42,032 nucleotides of DNA from contig NPFB01000088.1 in assembly GCA_014084085.1 (NCBI GenBank), positions 1-42,032 on the forward strand. The letters run 5' to 3'. Each line of letters starts with the position of its first letter. Within the stretch, counting starts at the first letter, position 1. The stretch is from Hondaea fermentalgiana (taxonomy: Eukaryota; Sar; Bigyra; Thraustochytrida; Thraustochytriidae). The translations under genes were made by a program, and so were the position numbers. This document shows positions 5,951 through 35,247 of this stretch, piece by piece. Under the pieces are notes generated by a model. The model was not told the DNA's origin, did no database searches, and worked only from the letters and a program-made list of their open reading frames with translations.

Positions 5951-6123
5951 GCAGGTATAAAAGTCTAGCAGAAAAAGAAAGAGAAAGGAATTTTACCTCC
6001 ATACGTTTTCGCGAGTGAACATGATGTGATGCTAATGCAGCAGCGCTGTCATAAACTAATGAAAATCGATTGATTTTGCTCTTCTCTCCACTTTCTAACA
6101 ACCTAACCTTAGCTACTATTGAT

Positions 6124-8725: not shown

Positions 8726-9289
8726 CTTTGCTCGGCGCGAGTTATTACGGCAAGCAAATCTAGCAGATCTGGATTCGTTCTTGCTTTGCCGCGGGAGCTC
8801 AGCTCCTGTCTTGCCGCAAACAATGAGTGTAGTTGTTCTACCATCATGCGTCATCTTGCGATGGATGTACTACATTGAAGGAGTAGTGTGCGTACTTCCT
8901 CGGCAGCGGCGATGGCCGCCACATGCGTGAATGCCGTCGTACTACTCCTAATCTTAGTAGTAAGTAAAGACACACATCAATACCTACTAGGCCTATACGT
9001 AAGAAACTTGGGGTGCACGTGAGCGTGCAGTACGCATTCACACCCGCCTCGCACGCGCGCACCTCCCTCCACGCTGCACATGCTGCCTCAAGATTTGGCA
9101 CGCGTCCACTTTCCATCAAGCCTGACGCTTGCGAAGTGCACTTATGGAAACGGCTCGGCTTTGAGACAGCAGCGAGCGAGCGCGCGAGCGAACCTCGGGG
9201 AGACGTCGCGCGACACCGTGCGCGCACGCCAGTCCGCACACACGCATGTGCTTTTGCGCGCGCGCGCACGCGACTTTGGATCGGCTGCA
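8726..9289. promoter_or_regulatory. Divergent promoter region with TATAGGCCTA element
   Basis: Spacer between the divergent methyltransferase and LRR genes. TAGGCCTATA at 8988-8997 (minus strand TATAGGCCTA, preceded by ACG) matches a 10-mer at 21444 and nearly one at 15283. The right half is rich in CGCG and GCGC and codes for Arg-rich low complexity in the LRR frame, so it is treated as leader. Confidence 0.45.
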
Positions 9290-11662: not shown

Positions 11663-11864
11663 GTTATTACAGCGAGGTCCTTTACAAATGTGCCACCGTT
11701 GCCGCAATGGTGGGGTGGGCCGTAGTATACTGCATGCAGCCACCCGAATCGCCAGCGCCGGCGTTGAGTAAATGTCACCGGTCCATCCTTAGTAAACCTT
11801 GACCACAATTTTACAATTCATCAACGCTCCTTGGGGCGCCTTGCGTCTTGTTTGTGTCTGCGCG

Positions 11865-14800: not shown

Positions 14801-15221
14801 TCGCAGATTGTGCGAGGACTACAACCACTGGGCTGGCGGCGGTCCGGATCTCTTGTTGTATCGCGTGTCACGTGCTCCGTCTCTGGTGGCCAATGAAGCC
14901 CGCCCCGACCTCGAAGAAATCGACAATCTCAATCTCGAGGTTCGTCCCATCGATATTGTGAGCAAGGCCTTGCCGCCGACATCTTCTGCGGCGGCCGAGC
15001 AGCAGCAGCAGCAGCAGCAGCGAGGCCGGCGCGCGGCACGGCACGTGCAGCCCTTGGACTTTTCCGAGTCGACGGAGACTGGAGTCGAGCTACGTTTCGA
15101 GGCGTGGTTCCTGGAGGTCAAGTCGGAGACCGACCGGCTGAGCCACAAGCAGTCGGGCTGGCTCCGGTACCTGGAGTCTGCAGGCGCGCGCGCTGGCGTC
15201 TGCCACGTGCGTGCGAGCTGA
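11865..15221 (+). CDS. FAN1: FAN1-type structure-specific nuclease (VRR_NUC)
   Basis: 1118 residues, a homologue of Fanconi-associated nuclease 1, which cuts 5' flaps and unhooks interstrand crosslinks in the nucleus. Visible parts: a basic stretch R-R-K-R-R-K-R-R-R near residue 19 (nuclear localisation); the FAN1 N-terminal domain; a SAP-like DNA-binding segment with an internal Ser/Arg-rich insertion (about 248-330); a TPR-like region (about 640-800, with R-R-R-G-Y-W-Y-N-R-L); and the VRR_NUC domain (about 840-1118). Catalytic residues are Glu868 (H-C-E-G), Asp995 (G-P-D-L) and Glu1084/Lys1086 (L-E-V-K), followed by the family signature D-R-L-S-H-K-Q. Asp995 and Glu1084 are 89 apart instead of about 15, because of a polyGln-containing insertion. 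The UBZ finger of animal FAN1 is not seen. The ATG at 11865 is the first in frame; upstream there is only a TTG. Confidence 0.92.
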   Translation: MADDARPERGGAEGSPVSRRKRRKRRRQQSFPQDALGASLVAPSGPSSSSCSIPWTKALALAQDEAEGLQKEEEEGEDVRVIGQSNEAPASEDSHNKADPGLDRNQAYREHLELVLRTVFVEREDYCSLATQEEREQIECLLNEASVDAKSLLARIFPRRGPWFRASQLARYFVPRRLAASTISEDDNDADAQQAALRAENALKELCRFGFAQSFDAQRASLEEGLSLAEAVLTAAELQQVLKHAKLDGRRPRGAASASVRRRASSSSSNSSNQSTSCTRRSIGDQSKSKSWRRGSKSRTEERAKCDEGYATKAEAIARLRFAGKSQRTVFGHGLPVARLITRVAKDEMVAIQSQPLGLLQRAFSLYYLTASMSSFQRVQDGSSTRAAGEATSLHFPGLLASFGKLRFADYTCKTEWPIFRDRRALDAYELAVALRTWLEVWVPAYTSQSSLSSSSSLMEPDTVPPEETLKASSPEVISLLCDDEDDDDDAKVSVVDENSAKNEINVEAGTSTEPSSCVALQEVKGEARDVTRGSSPNKTSHEMKAETRHETDPSRTNCENVTAQTSKFNSDSKASMSTSAVDIIIDIVSDDEKQSIGDAGENPSISNAEKVVQRRLTEGRRETATRQSPHTSVFDLRASSAIKELKLDMCTAQEVVNILIPYLEECVISEESASVSGNAPRFLAQFRASYALAEAISTGIEWIEKAHDYKEAARRWQDLLRLQTSHRRRGYWYNRLSIDQKHLGASQAAAETLVACLLDRSVPEHSAHRIEAEKRLTKLLRNRTTAASLPHAKNVLTSQSGNNGDMQVSEITIFGRRRASAQGRRPRVGERCEFFSAEDTPSMYCHVEEFVLEHFEQTGGWLGMHCEGQIFRALFAIFMWDAIFDEGVPDVFQTPFQHGPLDLFHCSGVFVDARRAKIEAILGDLQSASSASLAQRAKTSWDAHEGVQVCGMRWDAYPRETLACVAACIGPKVLVAILRRLCEDYNHWAGGGPDLLLYRVSRAPSLVANEARPDLEEIDNLNLEVRPIDIVSKALPPTSSAAAEQQQQQQQRGRRAARHVQPLDFSESTETGVELRFEAWFLEVKSETDRLSHKQSGWLRYLESAGARAGVCHVRAS
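15001..15022 (+). repeat. CAG repeat (polyGln) inside the FAN1 nuclease domain
   Basis: A short run of CAG codons encoding about seven glutamines, located in the insertion between the catalytic Asp995 and Glu1084 of the FAN1 homologue. Confidence 0.85.
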
Positions 15222-16619
15222 CCATGCCGCAGTCGCTGCCTCCTCCCCTGAGACAGATCGCCAAAAACTTATTTTAGGCACGTACAGGCCTACTAGGTTT
15301 TCTTCTGCTTTTTTTCAGTTCAGATCTTGGGACGCGCAGAATGTGAGGTTAGATTGGGGGGGACGAATTTTCTTTTCGTATAAGCCAAGAAAGCTTGCGA
15401 GAGAAGAGCAGAGCAAAGCAGAGTCGAGACTCCGCGTCGTGCGGCCACCGCGTCCCGCGCAAAAGACGGCCTCGTGCGGCAGCGCGGCTGGCAGAGGTGC
15501 AGCGGGCCGGTTCCTCACAGTCAAAGTCTGCTGGAAATTTCGATCGAAGGCCGGCACGGGCGCGACGGTGCCGAGGAAAGACACAGGGAAGGCAAGTCCT
15601 ATTGCCCCGGTTCCGGTGCGTTCTGCACGCCAATATTCGCACTTTGATCGCTCTTTGTAACGCTCCCGCGACCGAAGCAGACCCGGCCAGAACCTTTCCA
15701 GCGTCGCACTGGCCCTCCGACACTCGGCGTGCGTCTCCTCCAGACAGCCACATCTCCGCGCACACCCTCCTCCCGCGCTCACTGAGCGTTCCGGCGAGAA
15801 CGGCCTCTCTCGCGTGCCGCAGAGGCGCGTGTCTGCTGCGGCGGCAGTGGAGAGGAGGGCGCGAAGGTGCGGAAACCGCTCCCCGCGGGAGAGGGGCCAC
15901 GTCCAGTGGGCGCGGCCCGTCTCGGTTGGACCGACCGGCCGCTGTTGACTTTTTCCTTCCTTCCTTCCAGCCTCCCCCCCTTCCTTCCGCGTTTTTCTCC
16001 CCCCGCCCGCCACCGCAAACGCGCTGCAGGCCGCACCGGCGTCGCGACCGTCTCTGCGCAGACGCCTCCGCTGCCTTCCCGGGCGGAGGCGTCTGCGTGC
16101 GTGTCCAGCCGCCTGGCCGCTGCGACTTGGAGCGGCGGCCTGGCCGGCGGCAAAGATTTTATTTTGTTCTGCTCTGTTCTGTTTTGTTTTGTTTTGCTTC
16201 TTTTGTTTCCTTTCCCGGCCAATGCAGCAGTTTCTCGCTCCAGTGGCCGCGCGCGCCTGCAAGTGGGGCACGGGGCGCTTACAAGTGGAGTATCGCTCCG
16301 GCAAGTGGCGCAGGGCCCGCAGTGCGATCTGCTCCGCCGCCAGGATTCAAAACCGGCCGCTGCAAGGCTCCAGAAGGATCCGCGCAAGGGGCTATAGCGC
16401 GGGTGCGCCAGTGTAGCGGCGCGGCGCGAAGTGGAGATTGCGCGCGAAAGTCCACTTGCGGCCGGCGCGCGACTGCCGCGCAGAGTTTGAATCCTGCGAG
16501 CGAAAGCAAAGCGGCGCAGAGAAGAGCAAATCCCTTTCGCACCAGACCCACGTACGTAGCGCAGCGCGGCGAGGACGCGAGCTCGGCGGGCAAGCGGGGA
16601 AGGAGGCGGCGGAGGAGCA

Positions 16620-16692
16620 GGAGAAGGCGCGCGGAGAAGGCGCGCGAGAGCGGCGCGGAGAAGGCGCGTCTGTGCGCGGAGAAGGCGCGCGG
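16620..16692. repeat. GGAGAAGGCGCG-type minisatellite
   Basis: Four imperfect copies of GGAGAAGGCGCG, spaced by GC-rich filler of varying length. Confidence 0.75.
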
Positions 16693-16938
16693 GACGAGCG
16701 GAGATGGCGAGGATGGATGGATGGATGAAGGGCGCGTGAGGCCGAGGCGAAGAACGGCGACGCGGAGAGAAGGCGGGCGGCGAGGGGAGACGAGGCCAGG
16801 CCAGGCCAGGCGCGGGGAGACGAAGGCGGGAGCGAGAGAGAAGACCGCGCCGGGCGGGCGCGAGGGGAGATCGAGGAGGATCGCGGCGTTGCGAGCCACG
16901 GCGTCAGCAGTGAGGCGCAGCGCTCTTCTTCAGCAATC

Positions 16939-16945
<7 letters not shown>

Positions 16946-16978
<33 letters not shown>
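16946..16978. repeat. (TC)n dinucleotide microsatellite
   Basis: About 16 uninterrupted TC dinucleotides, followed by a short GT run. Confidence 0.95.
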
Positions 16979-16984
<6 letters not shown>

Positions 16985-17305
16985 CCCTCAATCTTTCTGT
17001 CTATGCGAAACTGCTTGGTGCCAGCGAAGCCAGGCTGGCTGGCGGGCGGGCGGGCGGGCGTCGACCAACGCCGCTAATGCAGGGCATGGCATGGCATGGG
17101 ATTGGCTCGGCACAGCAGGGACGGGGATGAGAGCGGAGGCCGAGAACGGTGATCGAGACAAATGTATGAGAGAACAAATTGACTAACGACCCAGCTTGTT
17201 ACTACTTGCGACCCACCTGAATGCGCCTTTACTTTCTTCACATCGAAAATAGAAACAGAGCAAGTCTCCGCCCCCTAGCAACTCTTTTCTCCCCAAATAA
17301 GCAAG

Positions 17306-18148
17306 ATGGCCCCCGTCAAGTTCCGCGATGTCGGCAGCGCCGCCAACGACCTCATCAACAATGACTACTGCTTTGACCGCAAGTTCAAGCTCAAGACCAA
17401 GAGCGTGAACGGCCTCGTCCTCACCACCGAGGGCACCCTCAAGCCCAAGGGCGTCGCCGGCAAGCTCTCCGCCGCCTTCAAGCCCTTCGATGGCATCACC
17501 ATGAAGAAGGTGTGCGTGACCACCGACGGCCGCTTCTCCACCGAGGCCTCCCTCGACAACGCCCTCGAGGGCGTGACCTTCACGGTCAAGGCCGAGGACG
17601 GCGCCAACAAGCCCCCCGCCGGCGAGCTCTGCGTCGACTACAAGTCTGGCAACGCCACCGTCAACACTAGCGTTGATGTGTGCGACGTCAACGGCCCCAC
17701 CCTCTACGGTGCGTCCACCCTCGCCTACGACAACTTCCTTCTCGGTGGCGAGATCCGCTACAACACCGGCTTCGATTCGACGGATGGGTCCCCGTCGGTC
17801 GTCGACTACAACGCCGCGCTCTCGTACCACGGCGGTGACTTCGTGGCTGCCCTTACCTCCAAGAAGAAGCTCTCTGACCTGACCTTCAACCTCCACCAGC
17901 GCTACTCCAAGGACATTGCCCTCGCCACCACCTACAACCACTCCTCCAAGCTCCTCACCGTCGGCGGTATCTACAAGCTCGACATGGCCACCGTGCTCCA
18001 GGGCAAGCTCAACTCCAAGGGTATTGTCTCGGCCAACGCCATCCAGATGGTCAGCCCGGGCGTCAAGCTCATCACCTCCGTCGAGGTCGACGCCAAGAAC
18101 TTTGCCGGTGACTCGCACAAGTTCGGTCTTCAGCTCCTCCTCGGCTAA
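17306..18148 (+). CDS. Mitochondrial VDAC-type porin
   Basis: 280 residues, the usual length of a voltage-dependent anion channel (eukaryotic porin, Porin_3 family). These form a 19-strand beta-barrel in the outer mitochondrial membrane and pass ATP, ADP and other metabolites. The N-terminus M-A-P-V-K-F-R-D-V-G is the characteristic start leading into the pore helix. It is followed by alternating polar/hydrophobic strands and a C-terminal beta-signal-like strand H-K-F-G-L-Q-L-L-L. Codon use is strongly biased to C- and G-ending codons (AAG, CTC, GCC, ACC), far more than in neighbouring genes, which suggests a highly expressed housekeeping gene. The ATG context AGCAAGATGG is favourable. No intron interrupts it. 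The LRR gene converges on it from the right, 465 bases away. Confidence 0.95.
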   Translation: MAPVKFRDVGSAANDLINNDYCFDRKFKLKTKSVNGLVLTTEGTLKPKGVAGKLSAAFKPFDGITMKKVCVTTDGRFSTEASLDNALEGVTFTVKAEDGANKPPAGELCVDYKSGNATVNTSVDVCDVNGPTLYGASTLAYDNFLLGGEIRYNTGFDSTDGSPSVVDYNAALSYHGGDFVAALTSKKKLSDLTFNLHQRYSKDIALATTYNHSSKLLTVGGIYKLDMATVLQGKLNSKGIVSANAIQMVSPGVKLITSVEVDAKNFAGDSHKFGLQLLLG

Positions 18149-18613
18149 GCGCCGTCTCTACAGACGTCCTCGGAAGGATCTTCGAAATATTCGAGCAACA
18201 ACAACCTAGCATAAGCCATCGGCACTGAGCCGAGCCGCGTAAATGCAGACATTTTTATCTTCCTTCGAACCCTCCTCGCGAATGTATTCACAGTGTCATA
18301 CATCGGCGAAACCTGGCCTCTTTTTCCCCGGGACGTTACTAGAAAACTGACTTGAGCGAGCATGAATGAGAATCCTATTGTTGTTGCCAATGGCTCGGCT
18401 TTGAAGAAAACTTCTGATGTTGACCTTTGCTCACGTACTTATACACCTTTGGAGAGCAGCGAAGGCATTCCGTCACAAAGCATTCCCATATTGCCCCACC
18501 CATAATACTGAGCGTTCTTTTTTATTTGCTTACAAATTTCATCAAACACAACCTGCACTGGGCAAGGCGGGTTGTCTAGCAACAAATTCTTCATCTTCTC
18601 CTCGCTTCTCTTT
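18149..18613. other. Convergent 3' spacer
   Basis: 465 bases between the convergent VDAC and LRR genes, so it should contain both 3' UTRs. It is less GC-rich than the flanking genes. No gene or repeat stands out. Confidence 0.5.
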
Positions 18614-20812
18614 TCAATAGCCCTCGTCTTCGGCCGCCTCGCCTCGGTCCAGGGCAACACCCAACGTAGGGAATTTGGAAACCTTGTGACCGGCTTCCTG
18701 AAGCCAGGCCATGCAAGCCGCATGGACTGCAGCCTCGCCCACAGACATGGTAAAAGCCATGTCAGTGAGCGCTTGGCCATCTACACAATCATCCTCGCTG
18801 ATCAAACTGGAAGCACCCCGACTCAAGCGCCTGACACTTGCACGGCCTGCAGCGCCCAGCACGCTTAGCGTCGCGCCTTCGTCCTTGTCAACGAGAAACA
18901 TCTCTGCGAGACGTGCCGTGCGGTCCTCAACAGGCGTGCTGGCGAGCTGGGACACCACATACTGCGCATCCGCGCTCACGCAGCCCTCGGCAATCGTCAG
19001 CATTGTCAAACCCTCGTTCGCACGCAGCATCTCAATGAGGCGCGCCACGCCTTCGTCACAGACGCCGTGCGTCGTGTGAGGCGGCAGCAAGGGACCACCG
19101 ACCGTCAGCGTTTCGAGTGTTTCGTTGGATTCGAGCGCTTCTCCAAGGGCAAAGCAACCCTCAACGCCCAGCGCGCAGGATCGCAGATCCAACGACTGCA
19201 ACTGTGAGCGAGACTTGGTCAGCGCGCCACACAGCATGGCCACGCCATCTTCATCAATGCCAGTGTAGCTCAAGTCGAGATGGGCCAGAGCAGAGGTCGA
19301 CGAACCCAAAAGCCTCGCGAGCGCCTGGCACGCGCCACTCGAGAACGGATTTCCGCTCAGATCAAGCGTGGACATCACCTCGTTCTTCTTGAGCCCCGCG
19401 CACATGGATGCCATGCCTGCATCGTCAATACCACATGCACGGACGCGAAGTATCTCGACTGTCTGCAGATTTCGAACAAGATCCCCAATACAGTCCTCGG
19501 TGAGCTCGTTGCCACTGAGATCAAGGCACTCGAGCTGGTCCATGCCGAGCAGCGCTGACGAAAGCGTGTTGACCTGCGAGGGAGACAACAGACACATGCG
19601 CAGCGTCAAGTCGCGGAGCGCCGGCATACATTCCAAAACGAGAGCAAATTGATCAAATACATGGCAAACCGACGTGCGGCTCGCATTGAGCTCTTCGAGC
19701 GTCTCTCCAGTGCCATCCCCGAGAGCGTCTAGCAGTTTCTCCATGGACTCGGCGCCCTGGGCGCCTGACAGGTCCAGTGTATGGAGGCCCTCGATCTGCA
19801 CGGTGCCCAGCACCGAGGCAAAGCCCTCCAGAACGGCGGGCGACGCGCTTGCAAATCGGAGCGAGTGCGCCTCTCCGGCCTCGATGGCCTCGCAGAGCGT
19901 GTCGAGGTCCTCATCGGTGCGAATGACTACGTCTGCGCTTGTTTCGCTCTGGGCGACGAGAGGGTTTGACGCCTTGCGCGCACTACGCCCCGACTTTCTG
20001 CTCTGCGACCATCCCCGTGTGCTAATACGTTTGCCCTTCCAGGCATCTAGGCGTCCGGCGAGCTCGCGCTCGGACGCAGGCTTCAAGTCCTGCGAGATCC
20101 TCAAGGACGACTTGCGACGGCTCTCGCTCCGTCTCGACGACGACGAGCGCCGCGACAGCGACTGGGACAGGCGACGCAGCACGCTTGCATCTTGTTCGGT
20201 GCTGTTTACAGGGGCAGACTTGCCCACGCGGACGACGTCGCGCGAGGAAGAAGACGACCTCACCGAGGGGAAATCCTCGACGCGCTTGACCGAGATCCTG
20301 GACCCTGCTTTTGTCGCTGCGGTCGCAGCAGCAAATCCGGCAGAGCTCGTGGAAGTTGCGATCGCAGAGGGAGAGGCTGACGAAGATGACGACATCGACG
20401 ACGCTGAGGAAGACGAGGAGCGCAGCGACATGCGCTTTGACATACGCAGCGAGTGCCGCTGCTTGGTCTGCATTTTTTCGGGGCTGCTCGAGCCCGCGGA
20501 GGAGGACGCCGCGGTCGGCAGGTCGAACTCGCGCGCGTCGTCCTCGAGGGAGTCGAGGGCCAACTGGACCTCTTCGTCGGGATTTTCGCAGAAGATCTCC
20601 CCGTCCTGGTCCGCGGTCCTGTCTCGCGACCCCGCCATCTCCTCGTCGACGGGCGTGCGCGCTGCGCTGGCGCCGGTCCTCGTCGCGCGCCGCTTGATCA
20701 TGTTGAACATGCCCGCGACCAGGCTGCCCGACCTCGAGGCTGCTGCGGCCGACCGCGACTCCGTCTCGCCGCCGCCCGCGTCCCCCGCGCGGGGCGCCGC
20801 CTTGCGCTGCAT
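18614..20812 (-). CDS. Leucine-rich repeat protein with disordered Ser/Arg-rich N-terminus
   Basis: 732 residues. The first 310 are low complexity and rich in Ser, Arg and Ala (long Ser runs near 140-170), probably disordered and a target for phosphorylation. About 314-627 hold ribonuclease-inhibitor-type leucine-rich repeats of about 28 residues, with clear L-x-x-L-D-L-S-G-N cores (for example C-L-D-L-S-G-N-E-L, T-L-D-L-S-G-N-P-F and H-L-D-L-S-Y-T-G-I). About 640-732 form an Ala-rich helical tail. It resembles the LRR part of the protein at 9290 in type but lacks the long coiled coil. The start is the first ATG in frame. A protein-binding scaffold role is a family-level inference; the partner is unknown. 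Confidence 0.82.
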   Translation of the reverse strand: MQRKAAPRAGDAGGGETESRSAAAASRSGSLVAGMFNMIKRRATRTGASAARTPVDEEMAGSRDRTADQDGEIFCENPDEEVQLALDSLEDDAREFDLPTAASSSAGSSSPEKMQTKQRHSLRMSKRMSLRSSSSSASSMSSSSSASPSAIATSTSSAGFAAATAATKAGSRISVKRVEDFPSVRSSSSSRDVVRVGKSAPVNSTEQDASVLRRLSQSLSRRSSSSRRSESRRKSSLRISQDLKPASERELAGRLDAWKGKRISTRGWSQSRKSGRSARKASNPLVAQSETSADVVIRTDEDLDTLCEAIEAGEAHSLRFASASPAVLEGFASVLGTVQIEGLHTLDLSGAQGAESMEKLLDALGDGTGETLEELNASRTSVCHVFDQFALVLECMPALRDLTLRMCLLSPSQVNTLSSALLGMDQLECLDLSGNELTEDCIGDLVRNLQTVEILRVRACGIDDAGMASMCAGLKKNEVMSTLDLSGNPFSSGACQALARLLGSSTSALAHLDLSYTGIDEDGVAMLCGALTKSRSQLQSLDLRSCALGVEGCFALGEALESNETLETLTVGGPLLPPHTTHGVCDEGVARLIEMLRANEGLTMLTIAEGCVSADAQYVVSQLASTPVEDRTARLAEMFLVDKDEGATLSVLGAAGRASVRRLSRGASSLISEDDCVDGQALTDMAFTMSVGEAAVHAACMAWLQEAGHKVSKFPTLGVALDRGEAAEDEGY

Positions 20813-21685: not shown

Positions 21686-21686
21686 T
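21630..21686. repeat. (TTCG)8 and (ATTC)n compound microsatellite at the myosin stop codon
   Basis: TTCG units from 21630 to 21664, a short interruption, then ATTC units to 21686. The last base of the tract belongs to the TGA stop codon of the myosin gene (21686-21688, minus strand), so tract-length change could affect the 3' UTR immediately after the stop. Confidence 0.9.
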
Positions 21687-21751
21687 CACGAATACTCGTA
21701 GGGTGGAATGTCAAGGCGCGAGGGAAGACGCTGTTGATGCCGCCGCGGTTG

Positions 21752-21788
<37 letters not shown>

Positions 21789-24700
21789 AATTGGTGCAAT
21801 TGGTGCTGCTCTTGCTGTTGCTGCAGATAACCTCGTTCACCTTCTGCATCACCGCGATCTTGATCGTGCAGAGTTCCCCGACTGGGATATGACTTGCCCC
21901 CTGCCTCCGCGGCAGGCGACGCCGTGAGACGGCTGTGCTCGGATGGATTCACGTGCAAGAGATGGTGCACTTCGTCGAGCGGCGGAATGGCCTCGGCGGG
22001 GCCGCGGAAAACAATGCGGTGCATCTGGTTCAAACACAAATGAGCCCAGTTGTTGGCCTCGCTCGAGCCGGCACGCGCACGCAGCTCGACACCCTTGCGA
22101 CGCAACCAAAGCTCGAAAAAATTCTCAAAGAGCTCCGACGGAGGAAACGTGCGAAGCGCCAAACTCAGAAGAAGCCAGCCACGCTGACGCGACTTTGGCG
22201 AGGGATTGTCCGAAAGCTGCTTGAGCATCTGAAGAAGAATCTCATCGCGGAGCTCAGTCACGGCGAGACCGACCTGCAAAATCTCCTGCGCCAAGGACGC
22301 AGGATACGAGTACTCGCGGTCTCCCATGTAGCCCAAAAGCGCCCGGAAAACTTTCACCGCAAGCGAGGTCGCCGGTGTCGACGGTAGACGCGATAGTGAT
22401 GTCGGAATGGGCGATGAAGAATGCGAGAGCATGCCCGACGCCAAACCTGGTCCGACCGCGCCAGTGTTGGCCGCAAACTCGGAAGGGCTCTTGAGCGCGG
22501 GAAAGAGCTCCAAACGATGCTTCTCGCGCGTCGCCTCCTGCTCAAAGAAGCGCGTCTTGATGCTCGTTGTCACCTTCACCACCGTGTCTTCGTCGCCCCG
22601 TTCCACCGCGGCGTTGAGCCGCAGTCGCTCAAGCTGCGCGGGAGGCATCGACAACAGCCTCCGCATTTCAGCCATGCGTGGCAGATCGATACGCTCGCGC
22701 CTCGCTTGCTCAAGCAGAGCGCGCATTACCGTAGCATCCACAGACTCCACGGCCCGCTCTGCCTGGGAGTATGCTGCTTGAAGACGATCGCGCAAATCAA
22801 TGGCGGCCGCCGCCGCGCGCGGACTGTACTTGAGACGGCGCGCTTCCTCGAGAGACGATTCCAGACCGCGCAAATCAGCGCGCTGTACGCACTGGTCAAG
22901 ACGTTCATCCACGACCATGAGGCGATCAAGTAATTGCCGCGCCTTGTTCACACGCGAGAGCACGTGCAGATCCGGGCTCGCGCCCAGTCGCAAGGTTTCC
23001 GCCTCTTCGAGGGCGTGCTCTAGAGCCCCCACGTCTCGGTTCTTCGTTGCATCTTGCAAGCGGACCAGCACCCCCTTGATGACATTGTGCAGGTGAGTTT
23101 CTCGTCGCATCATGTTCATTTCGTCCGCAGCGACCTCGTGAATGCGCAAGTCCGTGCAGTCGCGAAGCATGTTGTCGAGGTCCTGCCAGCTTCCATCAAG
23201 AAGAGCCTCGCGACAGCGCAGAACAATGCTTGCTGAAAGTTGTAAGGAGGTGAGTTCATCGGTACGCGCAGGCACCTTTTTGGCTGTTGCGATCGCCGCA
23301 TCCAAAGCACCCGTTTTCACCGTCGCTACATCCACGAAACCACCAAGAAATTTAGCATGTCCCGAAGCAAGGGCGCGTACAAGTCCCTGCAGGGCTTCAC
23401 GATGTTGGATCTCGTCGAGCAACAACGCCAATTCACCTCGCGCATCAGGGTGGCACCACAAGAGACTAAACGACCGCGCGTCACGATCCGACAGACCTGC
23501 AACCGGTGCACTTTGAGGGCGGCTATCAGGACGTGCATGGCTCGCTCGGGACGACGCAACCGAGGACGCCGAGGAAGACGCCGTCGAACCGCGACGCGCT
23601 GGTCCTGGGGCCGTCGTGACCATGCCAGCCGGGCCGCCGCTGCGCGCATCCTGCTGTGCGACTTGCAGCGCGCCCGTTCCCTCGGGAACGTTGGCGACGG
23701 CACTTCGCAACACCTGCTGCGCCGCTTCCCACATGTGCGGAGCCAAGGCAGCCTCATCAACACCGTGCATCGCTCCAGCGGACGAAAACGCATCCATGAG
23801 AATACGCCGCAGCTGCAAAACGGCCCTGCAAGAGTGTACGAGCGCTCGCGTCTCATCCGTGATGCGCGCAAGGGACTCCGCCTTGGTCATTGCGCGTTCC
23901 AGGCTCTGCACATTCGAACTGGCAATACTTACGGCGCCCACACGGCCCGTTATGGCGCCCGACCGAAGTGCTGTCTTGAGAGCGCGGCACACGAGCTGAT
24001 TTTGTACCTCATGGTGCAAAAGCTCCATCTCTGCGCCTGCTACGGGAAGACGGTGATACAATGAAATCGCCGACGCGTTTGCCGCGCCGCCCTCACCTTG
24101 ACTTGCGGCGTAGGTTTGTGCTTCTGAGAGCACAACGGAGGCCGTCACAAAGTCTGCATTTATCACCGCGGCGCGCAGCTGTCGGAGCAAGCTGGCAGTC
24201 TTGCGCAACGCCACGGCTTCTTCGGAGCGGCATCGAATCCGAGAAGCCCGCCCCAATGCCTTGTCCAGAGCACGCAAGTCCGCGCGCTCGATGCGCAGGT
24301 ACCCAAAGTGCCCAGGAGCCTGCCCGCAAGCAAGAGCCTGTCTGAGCTGGCTCACAGTCTCGAGATTTTCAATTTCTTCTCGGGCGCGCTCCACCTCGGG
24401 TTGCACGAGTGCAAGCGCTGATCGCCACTGATGTGTGCCACCGCTCTGCGTGGACACGGGGGCTTCTTGCGAGCGAATCCGATCACGAATCTTGTCGATC
24501 GACGCAATGCACGCCGAAGCTTGCGCCCACGCCGTTTCGAGGCATGCAAGGCGCATATCTCGAATTAAAAAGGCCAACTTGTATAGCGCACTTGAATACA
24601 CTGTATGGCATCTCCCCTCCTGCGTTCTCGCGATCGCACTATTCACCTTTTCGACGCTTACGCGAGATGGTGCATAGCGAGAAAACTTTCGCCGCCGACG

Positions 24701-27700
24701 CCGCGACCTCTGGCTTCTTGCTGGAGCCTTTGCAGATGTGCGAGCTGCGGGGGAGGAAGATGAAGACGAGGAGGACGACGAGGCCGAGGTTCGCCGCGCC
24801 ATCTCGCCCGCCGCTCGCTGCACGCTCTGCTTCTCTTCTGCACGGCGCAACTTGGCCTCGGCCTCGTCACGAGCAGACTCCGTTTCCTCACTGTTCCTCT
24901 CCATCGCTTCATTATCCTCGCTCTTGTCCTGTCTGTCATCGACATCGATGTTGTCGTCGTCATCGTCATCGTCGTCATCGTCTTCTTCCTTCACGTCTTC
25001 GTTGTTACTCTCATCTTCGGGCGCGTGATCGGAAACAACTCGCGGGTGAGATCGAGCCGCGAGATCCTGACCTTCCTCTTCATATTCATCGTCACTCGAA
25101 GCTTCTGACCAGGCGAGGGCATCCGAGAGAGCCTTGGCTGCGTCCTGGTCCTCCAATTCGTGCTTGATGAGCACGATCTCACGCCTTGCTATCTCGGGCA
25201 AATCAGAATCGGCGTCTTGCTCCTCCTCACAAATCCGAAGCGCATCCCGAACCAATGGACAATCTACGCGACCGTCACCGCCGCCCTCATCGGGACTGGC
25301 GAGGATGCCGTTGCGAATTTGACGAACGGTGTGCGCCGCAAGCATGAGCTGTTGTGCATCAGGAGTTGTGACTCCAATTTCAAGCGCATGAGCAATTGCA
25401 CGATTGAGTTGTGCAACAGAGACATGTTGCGTGCTCAGCTCCCCGGGGGCGCCCCGCACACCACCGTTCGCAAGCGCGTGCGAAAGCTCGTCAACGACGA
25501 CGCGACGTGTCGCCTCGTCGCCAGCCAGTCTCCGCTCGCTCGAAAACAGCTGCAAAGCCTCAAGCTGCGTTTCTTCGGCCGGTGTCATTTGCATCGTTGA
25601 CGAAGACGACACGGCGCGATCGGGCGTGTTCTCGCGCCACGTACGAACCACATTGTAGACGGTCTGCCATTGATCTGCCAACATGGCTTTACGCAACGAA
25701 AGAAGCTCTTTCGCCTCGCGCAGCATGATCTTCGTACGTGACGAAGGCTTGCGTGCGTTCGAGGCTGCATGAACTGCGGCTTCGAGAGACGCAACCGAGA
25801 CAGAAGACGTTGCCACGGCGCCGACGCGGCCCTGCAGACCACCTTCAGCCATGGCTTCAAGAATCATGCGCTGAGCAAGGCGATCCTCGGCCCGGTCATG
25901 AATCTCTTGAAACTCGGCACGAACCTCTCCTTCTACTTTTTCGATCGCCGCAGCATGCTCACTCTCCGTGTTGGCATCGCTACTTTCGATGCCATGCTGC
26001 CGACGGCGCTGGTCATCGAGCACCAGCATGCAATTTTGCATCGCCGTGAGCTCAGCGTCTACAGAGGCCCAGCGCTTTGCGCTCGAAGTCAAATAAACGT
26101 CGCGAAGCTCGGCCAAGTGCTCGCACAATTCGCAGAGTTTGAGAACCTCCGGGTCATACTGTCCACCCACTTGTTTTTCGACATTGGCAAGAGCCTCTCG
26201 CAAAGCTTGGCTGCTCACATCTCTGTCGTTCTCCTCGTCGTCTGCCGCGCTCTGATCTTCTCGATCACGACGATCTCCTCCTCCGAGAACGGAGCCATCT
26301 CGAACCGCCTCGCCCAACGTCTTGACCGTTTCGTGACTCACAAGGAGCCCACGTGCGTGGTACACTTGCTCCTCGGCGTTTGGCATGCGGGAAATGCCTT
26401 CATTATCGATCGCGTCGCCGAGCACGAAACGCAGGTCGTCGAAGTCGCGTTGCAAAAGAGCAGTTCGTAATTTCAAAATCAGCTCTGCGCCGTCCACGAG
26501 GTCACGCGCCTCGCGCGACTTGGCCCCGCCCAGACCCGCATTGACAGCACTGAGCGCATCGCGGAGACCTGACGTGTCGACCGCAGCAATGCGAAGCGGA
26601 TCGCCTCCATGGCCACTTCGAATGGCCTCGCGGATTGTCTTGCGGATGCGAAAGTCGTGAACGTGATCTTGTGCAAGCTCGAGCTCCTTTGTCGTTGACT
26701 CGGACAGTGCCGCCTCGCCAACACGCGTGAACGAGGGAATGCGAGCCAGAGCAGAAGCAATGGCCTCCACCTCGTCCTGCTCGCGTCCTCCATGCTCAAA
26801 GCCTTGGCGAACCAGCAGCAGCGTCTCAGCAACACGAGTTAAATCTTTGGTGGGCTGGCTCAAGTGCTTACCAGCCCGACGAGCGAGCGCGATCGCATGC
26901 TCGAGACCCTGCGTGTCCAAGTCCGACAAGTTGGCCTCACCCGGAGTGCCCCGCACGGATCCATTTTCCAAAGCTTGCTTGAGACGCGAAGCAGCTGTCC
27001 GCTCTCGGCACTCATCGACGAGACGCTGGAATTCTTCCCGCGCCTCGTCAGCGTGGCCAGCGAAATGGTCGGGCGGTGAGCCGCCCTCGACGCTCACACC
27101 GAGCTGCTTGTTGAGCAGCTGCGAAAATCCATCCCAGCCATCTGCAACAAGAGCGCTGCGAAAGAGGGCCACAAGCTTGGCAGTCTTTTCGAGCTTTTTC
27201 GCGCGTTCCGTCTTGCAGACAAGTGTCTGGACGCATTGCAGGGCGCTCTCCAGGCGTTCGAGCTCGCACGAGTTCGAGTCTGCCTGGCCGAGCTTGCCTT
27301 GCACCGCCCCTTGGCGGAGCGCCGCGCAGAGCTCTCGGATAATCTTGATGTCGTCCACATGATCCTGGATAAGTTTGAGTTCCTCCGCCGCTTCATGCGC
27401 CACAGAAATCTTGCGTGCCTTGTCCAGAGAGACCTGGACTGCGCCGAGCCAGGTCACGGCGTCTGGTTGCCCCTCTGCAGACGTGGCTGCGTCGGCCTGT
27501 GCAACGCAAGCGCGTACATCTCGCAGCGCCTTGGCAGTCTCAAAGAGCTGTTTTGATTCGGGGGACTTGCAATTCATTTTCTTGACATCCTCAATGGCCT
27601 CGTTCAAAATTTCGACAGAGAGGAGATCGAGATCGAGAGCGCCGATGGACCCGGACACGGCGCCGTGGCGAATCGCGCCGGAGAGAGTTGACATGACAGA

Positions 27701-30700
27701 ACGATGCTCGATCTCATCGCGGACAAGATTTGCCTCCGCCTCGACGCTTTCCACAAGACCGAATCCATGCTCCTCGATGATAGCCTCTGGAGCATGGCGC
27801 TCGAGAATGGCCTCGGCTGATGCCCAGTCCGGGCCGGCAAGAAGCGCCTCGCGCAGTGACACGGAGACCTTTGCGCTCTCGAGAAGTTGCGCCGCACGCG
27901 TCGAACGAGGTTCAAGCATGCTATACTTTTCGGTAGCATTGAGGAGCACACCAAGCTTAACGCTCGACAAGTCAATGGCTCCAATGCGACCCGAAGGCTG
28001 GCCTTCAGCGAGTGCTTCGGCCAGGTCACGACACATGCTCTCATCTTCAAACTTTTCACGCATCAAAGACAGCTCGCGCTGCGCAGGGCCGACGGCTTCA
28101 CGCTTGACCTCCTCGGCCTCGTCGTTTGTATCGTTTCTGCCGTCTTCGACGACTAAGAAGCCCTGGCGCTCTGCGTCCTCGACGAGCTGGCCCAGCTGCA
28201 AGAAACGCTTCTCGGATAGAGCTGCTCTTCCAGCACGCACAATTTTACATGCACCAAAGAGACATTGCGCAGATTTGGACTCACAGCGCAGCTTTTGAGC
28301 AAGTGCCAAGGCTTCGTCTAACACATGAAAGGTGATTGTGTCCACACGCAGATTTTCTGCTGTTCCGCTGGGTCCTCCTGATTTCAGAGCGTGCTGCAGA
28401 GCATGCATAATGCGACGATTGTGCAACTCCTTTGTTGCAAGCTTGACTTCGGCCTCGGCGGCGGAAATGACACGTTTGAAGCGCGCCTCTTCCAAAGCGT
28501 GCTCGATTATTTCCCAGTCCTGGGAGACGAGTCCGCGACGAAGACGAAGCACGAGGTTAGCATTTTCGAGGAGATCCTTGGCCTCGCGCGTCTTGCAGCC
28601 AAGCTCATTGGCGTCATCCACGTCAGCCTGTAGAGCATCGACTTCGATGCCGTCGAGATCAAGATCGCCAACCTTGCCCTGTGCCCCGCCCGACGAAAGC
28701 GCGCGCGTCAGCTCGGCAATGATGGTTCGATTGTTCAGCTCATCCTGAATAAGTTGCAGTTCTTTTTCTGTTGCTTCCAGGGGATCCTCGTCCGGATCCT
28801 TGTGATCGCCTCCGGCAAGAAGTACAGACTCGACCATGTCCCAATCGTCATTCAAAATAGCGCGTCGCAGATTAGCAAGCTCGCGCGCGCCGTAAAAGGC
28901 TTGCGCGGCCTCCTTGGAGTGAGGCTGAGGATCAGCACCGACTGCAGCAAGTTTCGACTGAGCTTCCTCGAGCGCTTGGTCGAGCGGATCAGCGCTGACT
29001 CCAGCGACTTTGATACTGCCAACAGTGCCAGTAACCGCGCCAGGCGCCTTGGCTGCCTTGGCAAGGATTCGAACGCAATCCTTTTCTGTGAGATCATGCA
29101 GCACAAGCTTGAGTTCGTCTTTGCAGGCTTCGGGAGCGCTGTGCTTTGTTGCGAGCTTGCGAGCCTCTGTTACGCGCTCTAAGATGCTTCGATCATCGGA
29201 CGAGCGTTCCAGGTCGGCGCGAATGGACCTCACGTGCTGGACGAGAATGAGCAGCGCCGCGCTTCGAGCCGAAGGTCCAGATCCTCCAAGGCGCTTTTTC
29301 ACCCACGAAACGACAGCATCCAGCTCGCGGGTTGGCTTGGGGTTCACCTTGAGCTTTCCCACCTGACCGGAGATGGCTCGTTTGGCCAATGCCTCGAAAG
29401 CCCGTGTTTCCAGAACATGAGCAAAGTACAGCTTTTTCAGAAGCTCTTGTTCGGGCTTGACAGCATCGAGAAAGATGCGTGCATACCTGTCTTCCGAACT
29501 AAGGCCTTCATTGAGGGTGTCGTGGTCGCCGTCGAGAAGCGTTGCCATGGTTTCCCAGTGTGTGTTGACAGCAGCATCGCGAAGGCGGGCATGCCGTTCT
29601 GCGCTCGCAATAACCGCGTGCGCGACCTCTGCCGGCGACTCGAGCATCTTGGCGTCTTCAATATCGTCCCTGAGTCGCTTTGTGGAAGCCTGCGAAAAGT
29701 CAGGCTTGGAGGCATCCCCGCGCACAGTGTCGTACTGCATAGCGGATGAGATTTCGGCAACAATGGTGTAGCACGCCAACTCGCCCTTGCAGAGGTCAAT
29801 CTCAGCGCGAGGAATATGAAAGCGGTCAAGATCGCCGTCCTCGTCGAGTTTCAAGGCGCGAGCCAAAAGTGACTCTGTCGAGTCCCAGTCCGAGCCCTGC
29901 AGGCTCTCGCGCAAGGCGAGGACGAGTTCGGCGACATCGGCGAGAGACCGCCCACGCGGCGTTAGTTCCTCGCGTGCTGCGGCAGCCTTGGTCCAGGCTT
30001 TGCGAAGAGACTTTGTGCTAATGACGGAAAGATCAAGTTTTCCGGGTTGTCCCTGCGGCCCGCCCTTGCCAAGTCCTGATACGAGGGACTCGATCAACTT
30101 TTCCTCGCGGACAACATGGTCGAGGCGATCGCGCGCAGCCTTGAGTTCTTGCTCGCAAAAGGGCGAACCATGGTCTTCCTGAAGCGCCTTGGCCTTTTGA
30201 ATCGCCCTCACGAGCTCGGGCTTGTAGGATGCCCGCGTTGCAGCGCGCAGGCCCTTCTTCGCTTGGATAAGGTTGCGAACGCCTTGAATTCGGCGATCAA
30301 AGTCGGCAATGGTAGATTGGAGCTCGGGGTACTTTTGTGCGATCTGCATTTTCTCACAGGCCGTCAGTACATCCTCAATCTCTTCGTAGCGCTCGGCTGC
30401 AGCGGCTGGCTTGTCTTGAATCGCAGCCTCGAGGTCCTCGACCTGGGCGCAGAGCTGGAGCTCATCCTCAATGACGGCCATGACATCGCGGGCCTCTTGG
30501 ATTTCCTTGTGGAGATTAAAGGGGGGCTTGACCTTTTCTTCTGCTGCGGCAACGGCCTCACTTATGTCCATGAGTTCACGTGAGTCTATTGCTTCGCGAA
30601 GTTCCCGCTGGACATCGCGAAATGCAGCGACCCTGCATCGCGCCAAGTGACCTCGAGCGATGCGAGTAATGTCTCCACCTGCGCGATCGCGGGCTCGCTC

Positions 30701-33382
30701 GCGATGCGCTTCGAGGTAAAGGTGCTCGGGCGCGCGGTAGAGCACCATTGTCTTTCCAAGACGGCAGTCGGTAAGGTCGACTTGTGCATCGTTTTCAGAG
30801 GTTTTCAAGAGATCCTCGAGCAGGGCTTTACAACGATCCTTGGCGGATCCCACGAGCGAGGGTTCGCGATTCGTCTTAAAGTCGTCGCTCGCAAAGACGC
30901 GAAAGCGCCGGTAAAAGACATCATGCGTGCGACGAAAGGGAAAACCCTGCTTGCGGATCTCGATGGCCTCAAAGACGCCCGAATAGCGGAGTTGCTCGAG
31001 ACACAAAAAGGGATCGAAGCGGTCTGGCGCCTTTTCGTTGTTTGGTTTGATGCAGCGAATGTAGTGCGGGCTCGTCGCATCGAGCGTGGTCATGAGTCCG
31101 TCGAGCTGGCGGCAAAAAAATCCGGCCTGGGTCTTGTGACGGCGCCTGCCCGAGCCGGAGGAGTTGGCGTTGCTGGTTGTCACTGTTCCATCGTCCTCCA
31201 CAGAGCTTGCAGGGAAAAGGGCGGATGCCATAAGGGCATTCGTGGCTCCCCGCGCCAGACTAACGAGATTTTCGCGGAGATCATCTTTATTCTTTTCGAG
31301 AAAGCCCAGAGCGCTGTATACTACGAGACCGGCATAGTGCTCGACCGCGAAAGAGAGCTCACGCTTGGCGCGAAGTTTTGGTCCTGCTTGAAAGCGCGGG
31401 TGAGAGTCTCCACCTGAGGCCGTCCCGTGGAACTGCGCGACCTTGCTAGCGTACGAGGCGTCCGACCCGCGCGGTAAAACGCACTCCTCATCAAGGAGCA
31501 CAAAGAGACCACGGGGCTTGTCTTCAAGGAGTGAAAGCACGTCGGCGTTATCTTCAAATGGAGGAGTGACAAAGTCGATCCCTTCGGCCTCGTACACCCT
31601 TTGCTCCGTTTTGAAGGTGTGCTGATTGAAGTGCTGTTGAAGTTTCTCGTTGGCGAAGTTGATGCAGAGCTGCTCGAAAGAGTTGTGCTCAAATATTTCA
31701 AAGCCAAAGATGTCGAGAGCACCAATCATGCGGCCCGGTGCATCAAAAGGACCACTCGCCCCGCCCTGTGGTGACTCGCCAGCCAGCGTTTTATTGACGT
31801 GTTCGACCAGCCAGTCAAAGAGGCGGCCGTAAATTTCCTTGGCGAGCGCCGCGCAGGATTCGGCGGCGGCCTGCGCGCTGAGCGGGCTTGCGATGACCTG
31901 ACCGCCCATGGCGCGGATGCGATTCGTAACGTTAGAGAGAAACTCCTCGCGTGAAAACCCGAGGAGATCACAGGTGGCCTTGATGGCTGTTTCACTCGAA
32001 GGGAGACGCACTTCGCAGGCGTCCTCTGCCGCGGCGCCGAGGGGAGGGGCGAACTCGACATTGCCCATCCACATGACGCCCGTAGCGACACGAAAAATGT
32101 CCATCTGCTCCTGGGGCGAGAAACCCAGTTCGTCGAGTGCCTCCGTGGTTTCGGCAAAAGCCTCGGCGTCGTCGACGCCGAGAATCTCAGTGCAGGCGCC
32201 AGCGTTGAGGTAGTTGAGCTGGCTGCAAGCCTTGGGAAGACGGAGGGCCGCTCGTTGTTTGTCATTTGCACCCTTGACAAGTTGATAAAAAATGTGAAAG
32301 TTGCGCTCACCCTTGATTTGTGTTGCAACGCGGCTCTTCTCGAGCAGGTAGTTGACAATGCGACCGCCCGCAATACGGTCGCGACCATCGAACTTGACAG
32401 CAGTCCACTTGCCAAAGCGGCTCGAGTTACCGTTGCGCAAGGTTTTGGCATTTCCGAATGCCTCGAGGATGGGGTTCGTGGCAAGAAGCTTGTTTTCAAG
32501 GCCGGTTGCCGCGGACGCCGCGACGTCGGCGAGGTACTGGAGACATTTTTTGGTTGCTTCGGTTTTGCCGGACCCACTCTCGCCGCTGATGATAATGCTC
32601 TGGCTTTTGCGCTCCTCGCGTAGACCTCGGAAAGCATTGTCAGCAATTTCAAAAAAGTGAGGCGGGACCTCGTCGCCCACGACGCGCTCCCTGTAAAGCG
32701 CAAACTGATCCTCTGTGTACAGGTCATTAATCCACTTGAAAGGATTAACGCTCACGAGAATAGTGCCGACGTTTGTAAAGTAATTGTCTCGCTCAGTGCG
32801 GAGGCGCAGGTTTTGGAGGACGGTGGCATGATTGATGACTTGCATCTTGACCATGTCGTCGGTGTCTTTGTTGACGCGATCAATGTCGAGAACGGGGCCG
32901 AGAATGTCGTCCGGAGAGTCAACGCGGATCTCGCGACCGTCGAGCGTGATAAAGAGATCGGTCGTGCCACTGACATTTTGCGCGGGTGCAAAGCAAAAGA
33001 TCTCATCTCGCACCCAGGCCCAAGACCCGCTTTCTGCGAGGATGTTGGCCCCGCTCTTGCGGCGCGTTTCACGAAGAGCAAAGTCAGTGGGGGTATCCCA
33101 TGTCGTTTTCCTCGTGAGCGAGTTAAAGTAGTACGTGGCGCCTTCCGCAGTGGTGTGTTCTGACCAGGCAGCCTCAATCTCGTCCTCGGTGGGGCCTTCG
33201 CTCTGCGCCCGGGCGAGCGCGGCAACCCCGCGGCTGAGGGAGAGCGACCCGCGCCGGATACGCTCTCGAACCTGGTCCGTCGTCAGCGGCTGCTGCGAAG
33301 GCGAGGGCGGCGACGGAGGCTCGTGAATCGCGGCGCGCGCAGCCCTCTTGGAGGTCGACGTCGTCGCCGTCTTGGAGGGCAT
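21686..33382 (-). CDS. Giant WW-myosin-helical repeat-MyTH4 protein
   Basis: 3898 residues in one uninterrupted frame. WW domain at about 69-99 (W73, W95). Myosin motor at about 165-890 with P-loop G-E-S-G-S-G-K-T (267-274), switch I N-G-N-S-S-R-F-G-K (317-325), switch II D-I-F-G-F-E (557-562) and S-P-H-Y-I-R-C-I-K-P-N (771-781). All nucleotide-contacting motifs are intact, so it should be an active actin motor. One degenerate IQ motif follows (about 906-916), implying a very short light-chain arm. Residues about 920-1095 are helical. About 1105-3360 carry 17 copies of a 115-residue repeat, interrupted by an acidic/Ser/basic linker (about 2756-2908). Helical repeats return at about 3437-3597, then MyTH4 at about 3665-3805 (Y-P-x-S-L-A-Q-E-I, L-R-D-E-I-L-L-Q). 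No FERM domain follows, only a polyGln tail. MyTH4 domains often bind microtubules. I infer a long cargo-bridging or actin-microtubule cross-linking motor; its class is uncertain. Confidence 0.93.
21749..21787 (-). repeat. PolyGln codon repeat in the myosin C-terminus
   Basis: Thirteen consecutive glutamine codons on the minus strand, nine CAG then four CAA in reading order, near the end of the myosin tail. Further Gln/His/Leu-rich sequence lies just upstream in the protein. Confidence 0.9.
23300..30070 (-). repeat. Array of about 17 coding repeats of 345 bp (115 residues) in the myosin tail
   Basis: The marker is a loop of form G-G-x-x-G-x-x-G-x-L-D-L. Its copies centre near 30048, 29720, 29361, 29022, 28668, 28361, 27986, 27641, 27291, 26946, 26595, 26270, 25817 and 25449. 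After the linker they resume near 24310, 23943 and 23340. Most spacings are 307-375 bases. Copies near 29720, 26595, 26270 and 23340 have degenerate loops. After the loop comes L-x-x-A-L-x-x-A, a short C-K-T/S-x-E-A-K-x-L segment, then L-R-x-A-L-x-x-x-D-W-x-x-V-E. Copies are diverged at DNA level, so the array is old. Confidence 0.85.
24660..25118 (-). other. Low-complexity linker interrupting the myosin repeat array
   Basis: Encodes about 150 residues (about 2756-2908): first Glu/Asp-rich with a run of about ten Asp, then mixed charged helix, a Ser run of about ten, and a basic R-R-R-R-R-K patch. It separates 14 upstream repeat units from three downstream ones and is likely a flexible, charged hinge. 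Confidence 0.8.
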
Positions 33383-34020: not shown

Positions 34021-35247
34021 TTACTGTGCTCGAAAAGAGAGTGGCGCCTGATAGCCTTCACTGGCGACTAGGTCCCAGTTGACAAAATTGAATAGAGGAT
34101 GCGCCTTGATGCTGGCGAGTCCTGCCTCGTGGCAAAGGCGGCGAGAAGGCTCTTTGCGAAAAAGCTGGTGAAAAAAATTGTTGAGCTCGGGGACAAATGG
34201 CCGATTGTCGTGAGGGAACTCGAGTGGGCCCGCGCAGATCAAGTTGCAGGTATCCTGGTCGTTCTCAGCACACCAGGGCCAACACGAGTAGTACATTTCG
34301 AAAAGAACAACGGCAAAACTCCACCAGTCCGTTTCACAGCCGTGCTTTTCGCGCTTGAGAATTTCCGGGGCGGAATAGAAGAGCGTCCCCGACGTGGTAC
34401 ATACACAGAGCCTGTTTTGATCGTCGTCCCAGTGCTCTTCGGGCGTTAAATGTGTCGCGAGACCAAAGTCCAAAATGCGGATATGTCCCTGCGCAGAAAG
34501 GCCAATGTTTTCAGGCTTAATATCGCCATGCACAATGCCCCGATCGTGAAGATGCTGTATTCCCGAAGCAATCTCTGCCGCCGCAAAAAGAACCTCTTCG
34601 AGCTCCAGCTCGTGCTCGTACATCAGAGTGAAGAGGTCGCCCCCAGCGCATAATTCCATGCCCACGTAAACGTAACCTTGCGAATAGGCACAAAAGGTAA
34701 GATCGACGAGGAGTGGAAATTTGTGTTCTTGTTGCGAGAGAATGCGGATGATTTCAATCTCTGCTAGTGCTTGGGTGTTTTCTTGTACGTTGGTGGGTAA
34801 ATTTATCATTTTCACAGCAAAGTGGCCTTGCGAGCTGACTTTTGGGGCGCATTGGAGCGGCAAATCGATCCATGCGCCGTGTTTTTGCAAAAGCTCGTGT
34901 GATCGTTCTGGTGTGAGAGAGTCGGCAAAGGGCATGTCGCTCGATGCCCCCGTTGTGGTTGCGCTGTCCGCGCTCGTCGTTTCGTCCGAGCTCCCATCTT
35001 GGTCGCTGTCTTGCGAAGCTTGGTCAGCTTGAACCTCAAGTGCGTTATCTACATTGGATTTGTTTTCTTTGCTGCTGTCGGAGCTTATGTTTGGCTTCGC
35101 CCACGAGGCCACCGCAACTTGGCCAGAAGGTCCATCTGCCAGGAACCTGTCGATGTGCAATGTGCATAGGGTTTCTGGTTTCTCTGCGCTCCCCGTGACT
35201 GTGTGCGACTTGGGCTCTCGTGCGCGGAGTGCAGCGCCGGTGCTCAT
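34021..35247 (-). CDS. AGC-like Ser/Thr protein kinase with split N-lobe
   Basis: 408 residues. The glycine-rich loop is G39-P-S-G42-Q-V44, and the ATP-binding lysine is K146 in H-F-A-V-K, about 85 residues further away than normal. The gap (about 50-135) is a Ser/Asp/Glu-rich insertion in the beta2-beta3 region. Helix C Glu is probably E163. The catalytic loop is H-G-D-I-K-P-E-N (240-247), with Gly in place of the Arg of H-R-D. D-F-G is at 260-262 and S-A-P-E at 292-295. The end (H-P-L-F-N-F-V-N-W, then A-P-L-S-F) resembles an AGC-kinase C-terminal tail without a full hydrophobic motif. All residues needed for catalysis are present, so it should be active on Ser/Thr. The non-RD catalytic loop suggests it may not depend on activation-loop phosphorylation. 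The first in-frame ATG is used. The specific subfamily is not recognised. Confidence 0.88.
   Translation of the reverse strand: MSTGAALRAREPKSHTVTGSAEKPETLCTLHIDRFLADGPSGQVAVASWAKPNISSDSSKENKSNVDNALEVQADQASQDSDQDGSSDETTSADSATTTGASSDMPFADSLTPERSHELLQKHGAWIDLPLQCAPKVSSQGHFAVKMINLPTNVQENTQALAEIEIIRILSQQEHKFPLLVDLTFCAYSQGYVYVGMELCAGGDLFTLMYEHELELEEVLFAAAEIASGIQHLHDRGIVHGDIKPENIGLSAQGHIRILDFGLATHLTPEEHWDDDQNRLCVCTTSGTLFYSAPEILKREKHGCETDWWSFAVVLFEMYYSCWPWCAENDQDTCNLICAGPLEFPHDNRPFVPELNNFFHQLFRKEPSRRLCHEAGLASIKAHPLFNFVNWDLVASEGYQAPLSFRAQ

Follow-up and report, generated by a model that had tools for sequence, protein, structure and literature searches.

A giant myosin of Hondaea fermentalgiana, a probable class IV motor with one tail module amplified about 18-fold

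The giant myosin gene and its parts

The stretch of DNA considered here (the window) is the entire contig NPFB01000088.1 (42,032 nucleotides) from the thraustochytrid Hondaea fermentalgiana and carries, on its minus strand, a reading frame of 3898 codons and a stop (21686..33382, ATG to TGA) for a giant myosin, named P0001. Two database relatives, P0002 (3869 amino acids, from another assembly) and P0003 (3560 amino acids), are grouped with it as the giants. All parts of P0001 described below are encoded on the minus strand. Close to the N-terminus lies a WW domain (residues 72-98, 33089..33169; Pfam PF00397, 31.3 bits, cut-off 26.9), followed by the myosin motor (Myosin_head, residues 174-881, 30740..32863; Pfam PF00063, 705.9 bits). 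The motor contains an intact P-loop (GESGSGKT, residue 267), switch I (NGNSSRFG, 317), and switch II (DIFGFE, 557); the TEDS position is occupied by Gln. A pattern search revealed one IQ-like motif, ITRIARGHLAR (residues 905-915, 30638..30670), and the Pfam search of P0001 gave no IQ match. The tail beyond the motor is about 3,000 residues long. It begins with an N-flank defined by profile matches (residues 876-1095, 30098..30757), which includes the motor end, the neck, and two degenerate units, and continues into an amplified array of 18 units, each about 108 residues long (residues 1097-3433, 23084..30094), recognized with an iterated repeat profile and interrupted by a poorly conserved acidic/Ser-rich spacer of 149 residues (residues 2743-2891, 24710..25156). 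The array is followed by a C-flank, also defined by profile matches and with two degenerate units (residues 3433-3697, 22292..23086), the MyTH4 domain (residues 3698-3806, 21965..22291; Pfam PF00784, 76.3 bits), and a C-terminal tail with poly-Gln (residues 3831-3898, 21689..21892). The last residues, IPPYEYS, are also found in P0002 and are absent from P0003. Only 92 residues remain after MyTH4, and neither a FERM model nor an SH3 match was found at E<=1 in the Pfam search of P0001. An earlier sequence-only reading had announced a giant single-frame protein with WW, motor, repeats, and MyTH4, and this was borne out at exactly these coordinates; the Pfam search recovered the WW and MyTH4 domains at the ends where they had been placed, and the motor motifs it had called intact are all present.

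A stop codon is located in frame four codons 5' of the ATG. The relatives were searched for with the P0001 tail among proteins of similar length only (1,967 candidates sharing most words). P0002 is 64% identical to the tail query over 100% of it, and P0003, labelled in the database as 'High molecular weight form of myosin-1' of Durusdinium, is 40% identical over 77%. The WW, motor, and MyTH4 Pfam domains are common to all three proteins, the WW match of P0003 falling 0.3 bits short of the Pfam cut-off. Since both relatives carry the same three domains and their tails align with matching units, a single continuous gene is supported, and 21686-33382 looks like one gene. The best-kept parts of the tail between P0001 and P0002 are the C-flank and MyTH4 (86% identity each), and the worst-kept are the acidic/Ser spacer (26% identity with P0002, 7% with P0003) and the C-terminus. 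In structure models, helix pairs are predicted for the C-flank, and the C-terminal part of P0001 gave a Foldseek match to Myo7 MyTH4-FERM structures.

The repeat array and its predicted fold

The iterated repeat profile has 108 positions and was built from the giants only. It finds 23 stretches in P0001 (residues 926-3588) and 22 each in P0002 and P0003; at a stricter cut-off, all three proteins contain 22. Shuffled controls (three tails, each shuffled 20 times, n=60) reached a maximum of 6.5 bits, and most real stretches score 24-93 bits, the weakest 4-23. In P0001, 21 of the 23 stretches fall within 24-93 bits, one scores 14.1, and one, located in the acidic spacer, 4.1. The repeats of the giant tail thus exceed chance. 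Units 3 to 20 (u3-u20) are the 18 in-register units and cover residues 1097-3433, i.e., 2,337 residues including spacers, which agrees with the earlier claim of more than 2200 residues of repeats; u1, u2, u21, and u22 are degenerate. Alignment of 17 P0001 units shows one fully conserved Arg and one almost fully conserved Leu; recurring elements are the Gly-rich turn, a helix of Ala and Leu, and the stretch Leu-Arg-x-Ala-Leu.

AlphaFold2 applied to three units (pLDDT 90.7, pTM 0.81) predicts helical modules with a beta-hairpin, in which 28-residue helices run across the unit borders. A comparison of this three-unit model with the PDB gave no significant match. The units being predicted helical and joined by continuous helix, the array is expected to form a structured arm rather than a floppy linker. 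The tail is not one plain helix: each unit is predicted to contain helices and a beta-hairpin, and an acidic/Ser spacer is present. A plain coiled-coil tail was considered and rejected because of the Gly motifs and predicted hairpins in the units, no coiled-coil predictor having been run.

Class assignment of the motor

Class IV myosins combine WW, motor, and MyTH4, with SH3 in some members, and apusozoans and heterokonts are named among the groups that have them (PMC3942036). They were also placed in stramenopiles, rhizarians, and haptophytes (PMC5583752). The class IV set used here consists of the best 120 of 5,924 matches of a search with L025, another myosin locus of the same genome, and 43 of these 120 (one of them the outgroup) entered a motor tree of 66 rows. 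The tree was made by a quick method, with one vertebrate outgroup row and without rows for Acanthamoeba or for named myosins of classes V, VII, or X. Within it, 49 of the 66 motors group together (SH-aLRT 97). This clade includes the H. fermentalgiana myosins L025, L033, L035, and L036, Balamuthia P0045, Thecamonas P0090, and the giants, which form a group of their own with support of 100. Five FERM-type myosins of the same genome form a separate motor clade (support 100). Judged by the motor sequences, the giant myosin falls in the class IV clade.

The features of class IV found in P0001 are the WW domain, the tail MyTH4, the position in the motor clade, and the shared sequence beside MyTH4. 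The SH3 that follows MyTH4 in some class IV members is missing, which does not bar membership because only some members have it. As the motor tree, the domain set, and both tail flanks agree, the giant protein appears to belong with class IV. Membership in a MyTH4-FERM class was rejected since FERM is absent at E<=1, and an undescribed domain combination was rejected since class IV already has WW, motor, and MyTH4. The sequence-only reading had held that all known MyTH4 myosins have FERM, which overlooked class IV (PMC3942036). Its proposal of an undescribed motor architecture fails for the domain set, which is that of class IV, and stands for the approximately 18-fold tail module, which is new. 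It was correct about a tail longer than known, about 3,000 residues following the motor compared with 792 in Acanthamoeba myosin IV (PMC10693453). The physical bridging of distant partners that it suggested is a plausible role.

Other myosins of the same genome

The H. fermentalgiana assembly (36.0 Mb, 238 contigs) gave 56 Myosin_head matches at roughly 40 places. MyTH4 is matched 12 times, and in ten cases, one of which is the giant gene, the frame also encodes a motor. Five of these ten frames (L025, L033, L035, L036, and the giant gene) have MyTH4 without FERM, and all five show a WW match, below the WW cut-off in L033, L035, and L036. The remaining five (L021, L024, L028, L032, and L038) lack a WW match and instead match FERM or a FERM lobe, in L024 and L032 only weakly. 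A database protein bearing the label Hondaea fermentalgiana shares 99.9% identity with L025 over 1264 residues; for a second protein so labelled, the best match in this genome reaches 53-54%. About 40 myosin loci, with five of the WW and MyTH4 type and five with MyTH4 and FERM or a FERM lobe, make a large set for one protist with a 36 Mb genome. When residues 61-900 of P0001 were compared with these motors, a query that includes the WW stretch, the four best matches by E-value were L033, L025, L036, and L035 (35-39% identity), and L021, of the FERM type, nearly equals the fourth of them in score. With 1,187 array residues as query, the genome gave five matches, all inside the giant gene, and the repeat profile found nothing at E<=1 in the frames of 23 loci that contain 20 other myosins. 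Two motor-less MyTH4 proteins are also encoded in the genome, one with three WW domains, MyTH4, and FERM (C163, L041:1482-3845, minus strand) and one with leucine-rich repeats and MyTH4 (C185, L042:1702-5772, plus strand).

Origin of the array in ordinary class IV tails

After tails of 150 residues or fewer were removed, 137 non-giant tails were left. Of these, 27 exceed 15 bits with the repeat profile of the giants, compared with none of 137 reversed and none of 685 shuffled tails; in Balamuthia and Thecamonas, among others, the best match is one unit located about 190-285 residues past the motor. Both flanks of the giant tail are also found in these tails: at E<1e-3 the N-flank profile (residues 876-1095, reaching into the motor end and neck) matches 39 of the 137 and the C-flank profile (residues 3433-3697) 117, each with 0 of 822 controls.

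The spacing, taken from the flanks only, was followed in the 105 tails, the giants among them, whose C-flank match exceeds 20 bits. The N-flank is matched to its end in 20 of them, and the flanks are separated by 89-112 residues (13 tails), by 521 and 541 (two tails), and by 2124, 2286, and 2339 (the three giants). P0030 and P0102, for which a misplaced N-flank match gives impossible gaps, were counted by the C-flank start only. There is no room for a unit (C-flank start within 94 residues of the motor end) in 70 of the 105 tails; 24 have one unit length between the flanks, four about five, and four an odd spacing; the remaining three, with 18 units, are the giants. The share of tails without room is probably too high, because the set was gathered with L025, itself a tail of this kind. 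The 27 profile-positive tails include 21 of the 24 with one unit length, all four with about five, and none of the 70 without room. An hhalign comparison with a single-unit profile gave 98.9% probability, which is not an independent result because the single-unit profile was seeded with repeat-profile matches.

Both flanks being ordinary class IV sequence and the spacing being distributed in this way, the giant tail is a class IV tail with its middle module multiplied. What is new, on these profile matches, is the amplification of a single module (about 108 residues) of the class IV tail to about 18 copies. Four class IV proteins of 1.8-1.9 thousand residues (P0018, P0029, P0030, and P0033) have about five unit lengths between the flanks; in P0018, P0029, and P0030, only two units exceed 10 bits. 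All four may carry intermediate arrays.

Constancy of unit number and other arrays

The one-to-one comparison of units was made between P0003 and P0001; P0002 was judged by its equal stretch number and end-to-end alignment. In all 21 units compared, with u21 left out as too short, the P0003 unit best matches the same-numbered P0001 unit. Unit number may be fixed in this lineage, as judged from these alignments. Proteins of 0.55-1.75 times the length of a 1,187-residue array query were searched for other arrays, and three were obtained: P0124, a partial motor with 11 units; P0125, with 14 units and no Pfam domain above cut-off; and P0126, with six units, the C-flank, and MyTH4. Most of their units best match u7 of P0001, not the units in order, and u9 of P0124 pairs with u2 of P0126 at 51% identity. 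This non-collinearity fits separate amplification, or an old array that has lost its order; more tentatively, arrays out of line with P0001 hint at more than one origin of giant tails.

It is also worth mentioning that P0003, labelled Durusdinium, is 60-63% identical to the motor of the giant gene, and the same range holds for P0099 (also labelled Durusdinium) against L033 and for P0010 (labelled Batrachochytrium salamandrivorans) against L025. These three look like labyrinthulomycete sequence within the assemblies of other organisms, transfer being the alternative.

Genomic neighbourhood

The frames neighbouring the giant myosin lie at 846-20812 and 34021-35247 of the window. The first region encodes a hydrolase, a SAM-domain protein, an LCM methyltransferase, two leucine-rich repeat (LRR) proteins, a tubulin cofactor C-like protein (6124-7287, minus strand), and a FAN1-like VRR nuclease (11799-15221, plus strand); at 34021-35247 (minus strand) a protein kinase is encoded.

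Comparison with known systems

The closest system is class IV itself (Acanthamoeba myosin IV and heterokont, rhizarian, haptophyte, and apusozoan members), which shares with the giant the WW, motor, and MyTH4 domains, the lack of FERM, the motor clade, and the flanks. The difference lies in the module, present 18 times in the giant and from none to about five times in the others, in the post-motor length of about 3,000 residues against the 792 of Acanthamoeba myosin IV (PMC10693453), and, for members with SH3, in the missing SH3 match. The tail of this founding member was described as unlike other myosins save for SH3 (PMC10693453). MyTH4-FERM myosins (VII, X, XV, and XXII) resemble the giant in having a motor, a C-terminal MyTH4, and a matching MyTH4 fold; however, FERM is theirs and absent from the giant, and the FERM-type myosins of the same genome belong to a different motor clade. 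Spectrin repeats, of about 106 residues, are near in length to the 108-residue units, and their helices continue from one unit into the next, as is predicted for the giant array. Unlike spectrin, the giant unit is predicted to have more helices and a beta-hairpin, and no significant structural match was found. To our knowledge, KCBP, the plant MyTH4-FERM kinesin, has no array of the giant-myosin type. It also carries MyTH4 on a motor, and this MyTH4 binds microtubules, but the motor is a kinesin and FERM is present (PMC4574192). Among the papers listed on thraustochytrid myosins, those of Hondaea included, on class IV, on giant or helical-repeat myosins, and on the pairing of MyTH4 and WW, no title or abstract opening describes the giant tail, in a collection with few subscription papers.

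Proposed function and alternatives

It is proposed that P0001 is a class IV myosin in which the approximately 18-fold module rather likely makes a long arm of set length that parts the single head from MyTH4. One head, no evident coiled coil, a structured arm, and a MyTH4 end together suggest a long-reach tether from actin to another structure. The motor end would pull on actin and the MyTH4 end would hold a microtubule or membrane partner, with the WW domain possibly recruiting a proline-rich ligand close to the motor and the number of units setting the reach. The MyTH4 domain of KCBP alone binds microtubules in vitro (PMC4574192). Labyrinthulomycetes form an actin-bearing ectoplasmic network from the bothrosome, near the flagellar microtubule roots (PMC12221091; the word 'myosin' is absent from its main text), and this is a place where an actin tether could act. 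More tentatively, class IV myosins might be motors with counted modules, whose reach varies with module number (none, one, about five, or about 18), the number being frozen in this lineage, so that the arm would serve as a ruler linking the actin motor with a microtubule or membrane partner far away, perhaps at the ectoplasmic network or bothrosome, structures confined to labyrinthulomycetes.

Several observations weigh against reading P0001 as a class IV myosin with such an arm. The class IV sampling rests on one query (the best 120 of 5,924 matches). The database names P0090 'myosin VIIA' and P0045 'myosin-5', and no WW is among the Pfam domains listed for P0090. The N-flank profile also matches the FERM-type myosin L024. 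The shape of the arm comes from a three-unit model built on ten rows. The unit identities between P0001 and P0003 range from 24% (u5) to 72% (u20), a spread that also fits separate binding sites. Finally, a long stem (0.9) separates the giants from the remaining 46 rows of the motor clade, which stay together at 95; some classifiers may for this reason give the giants a class of their own.

The spread of identities leads to the strongest alternative, itself rather unlikely, in which the class IV protein would be a multivalent scaffold, its diverged units being docking sites for different partners and the arm length a by-product. The uneven conservation, with each unit keeping its own identity, is in line with this; the equal stretch number in the three relatives, despite several poorly conserved units, speaks against it, and no ligand sites were found in the units. 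A separate class, sister to class IV, with the tail gained on the stem of the giants, is doubtful. The long stem and the units of P0124-P0126, not collinear with P0001, would suit it, but WW, MyTH4, N-flank, and C-flank are all common to the giants and ordinary class IV, and the half-motor tree places the giants inside the clade, together with P0124, P0110, and L036/P0013 (96, on long branches). It is improbable that the array is a tension element whose modules unfold or extend under load, so that it would act as a spring or force sensor linking actin with the partner of MyTH4, although tandem helical modules with shared helices resemble spectrin, which extends under force. That at least two adjacent genes were read as one frame is hardly credible: the 3898 codons contain no internal stop, the codon-position composition stays roughly uniform along them, P0002 spans the whole tail query and P0003 77% of it with matching units, and these relatives have the same make-up.

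Class IV is a little-studied class of myosins, with which few papers are concerned. With a module, a predicted fold, and a series of copy numbers from none to about 18, the effect of tail length in an apparently single-headed motor can now be asked about, and for protists with an unusual actin-filled network the giant class IV myosin is a candidate for long-range actin links.
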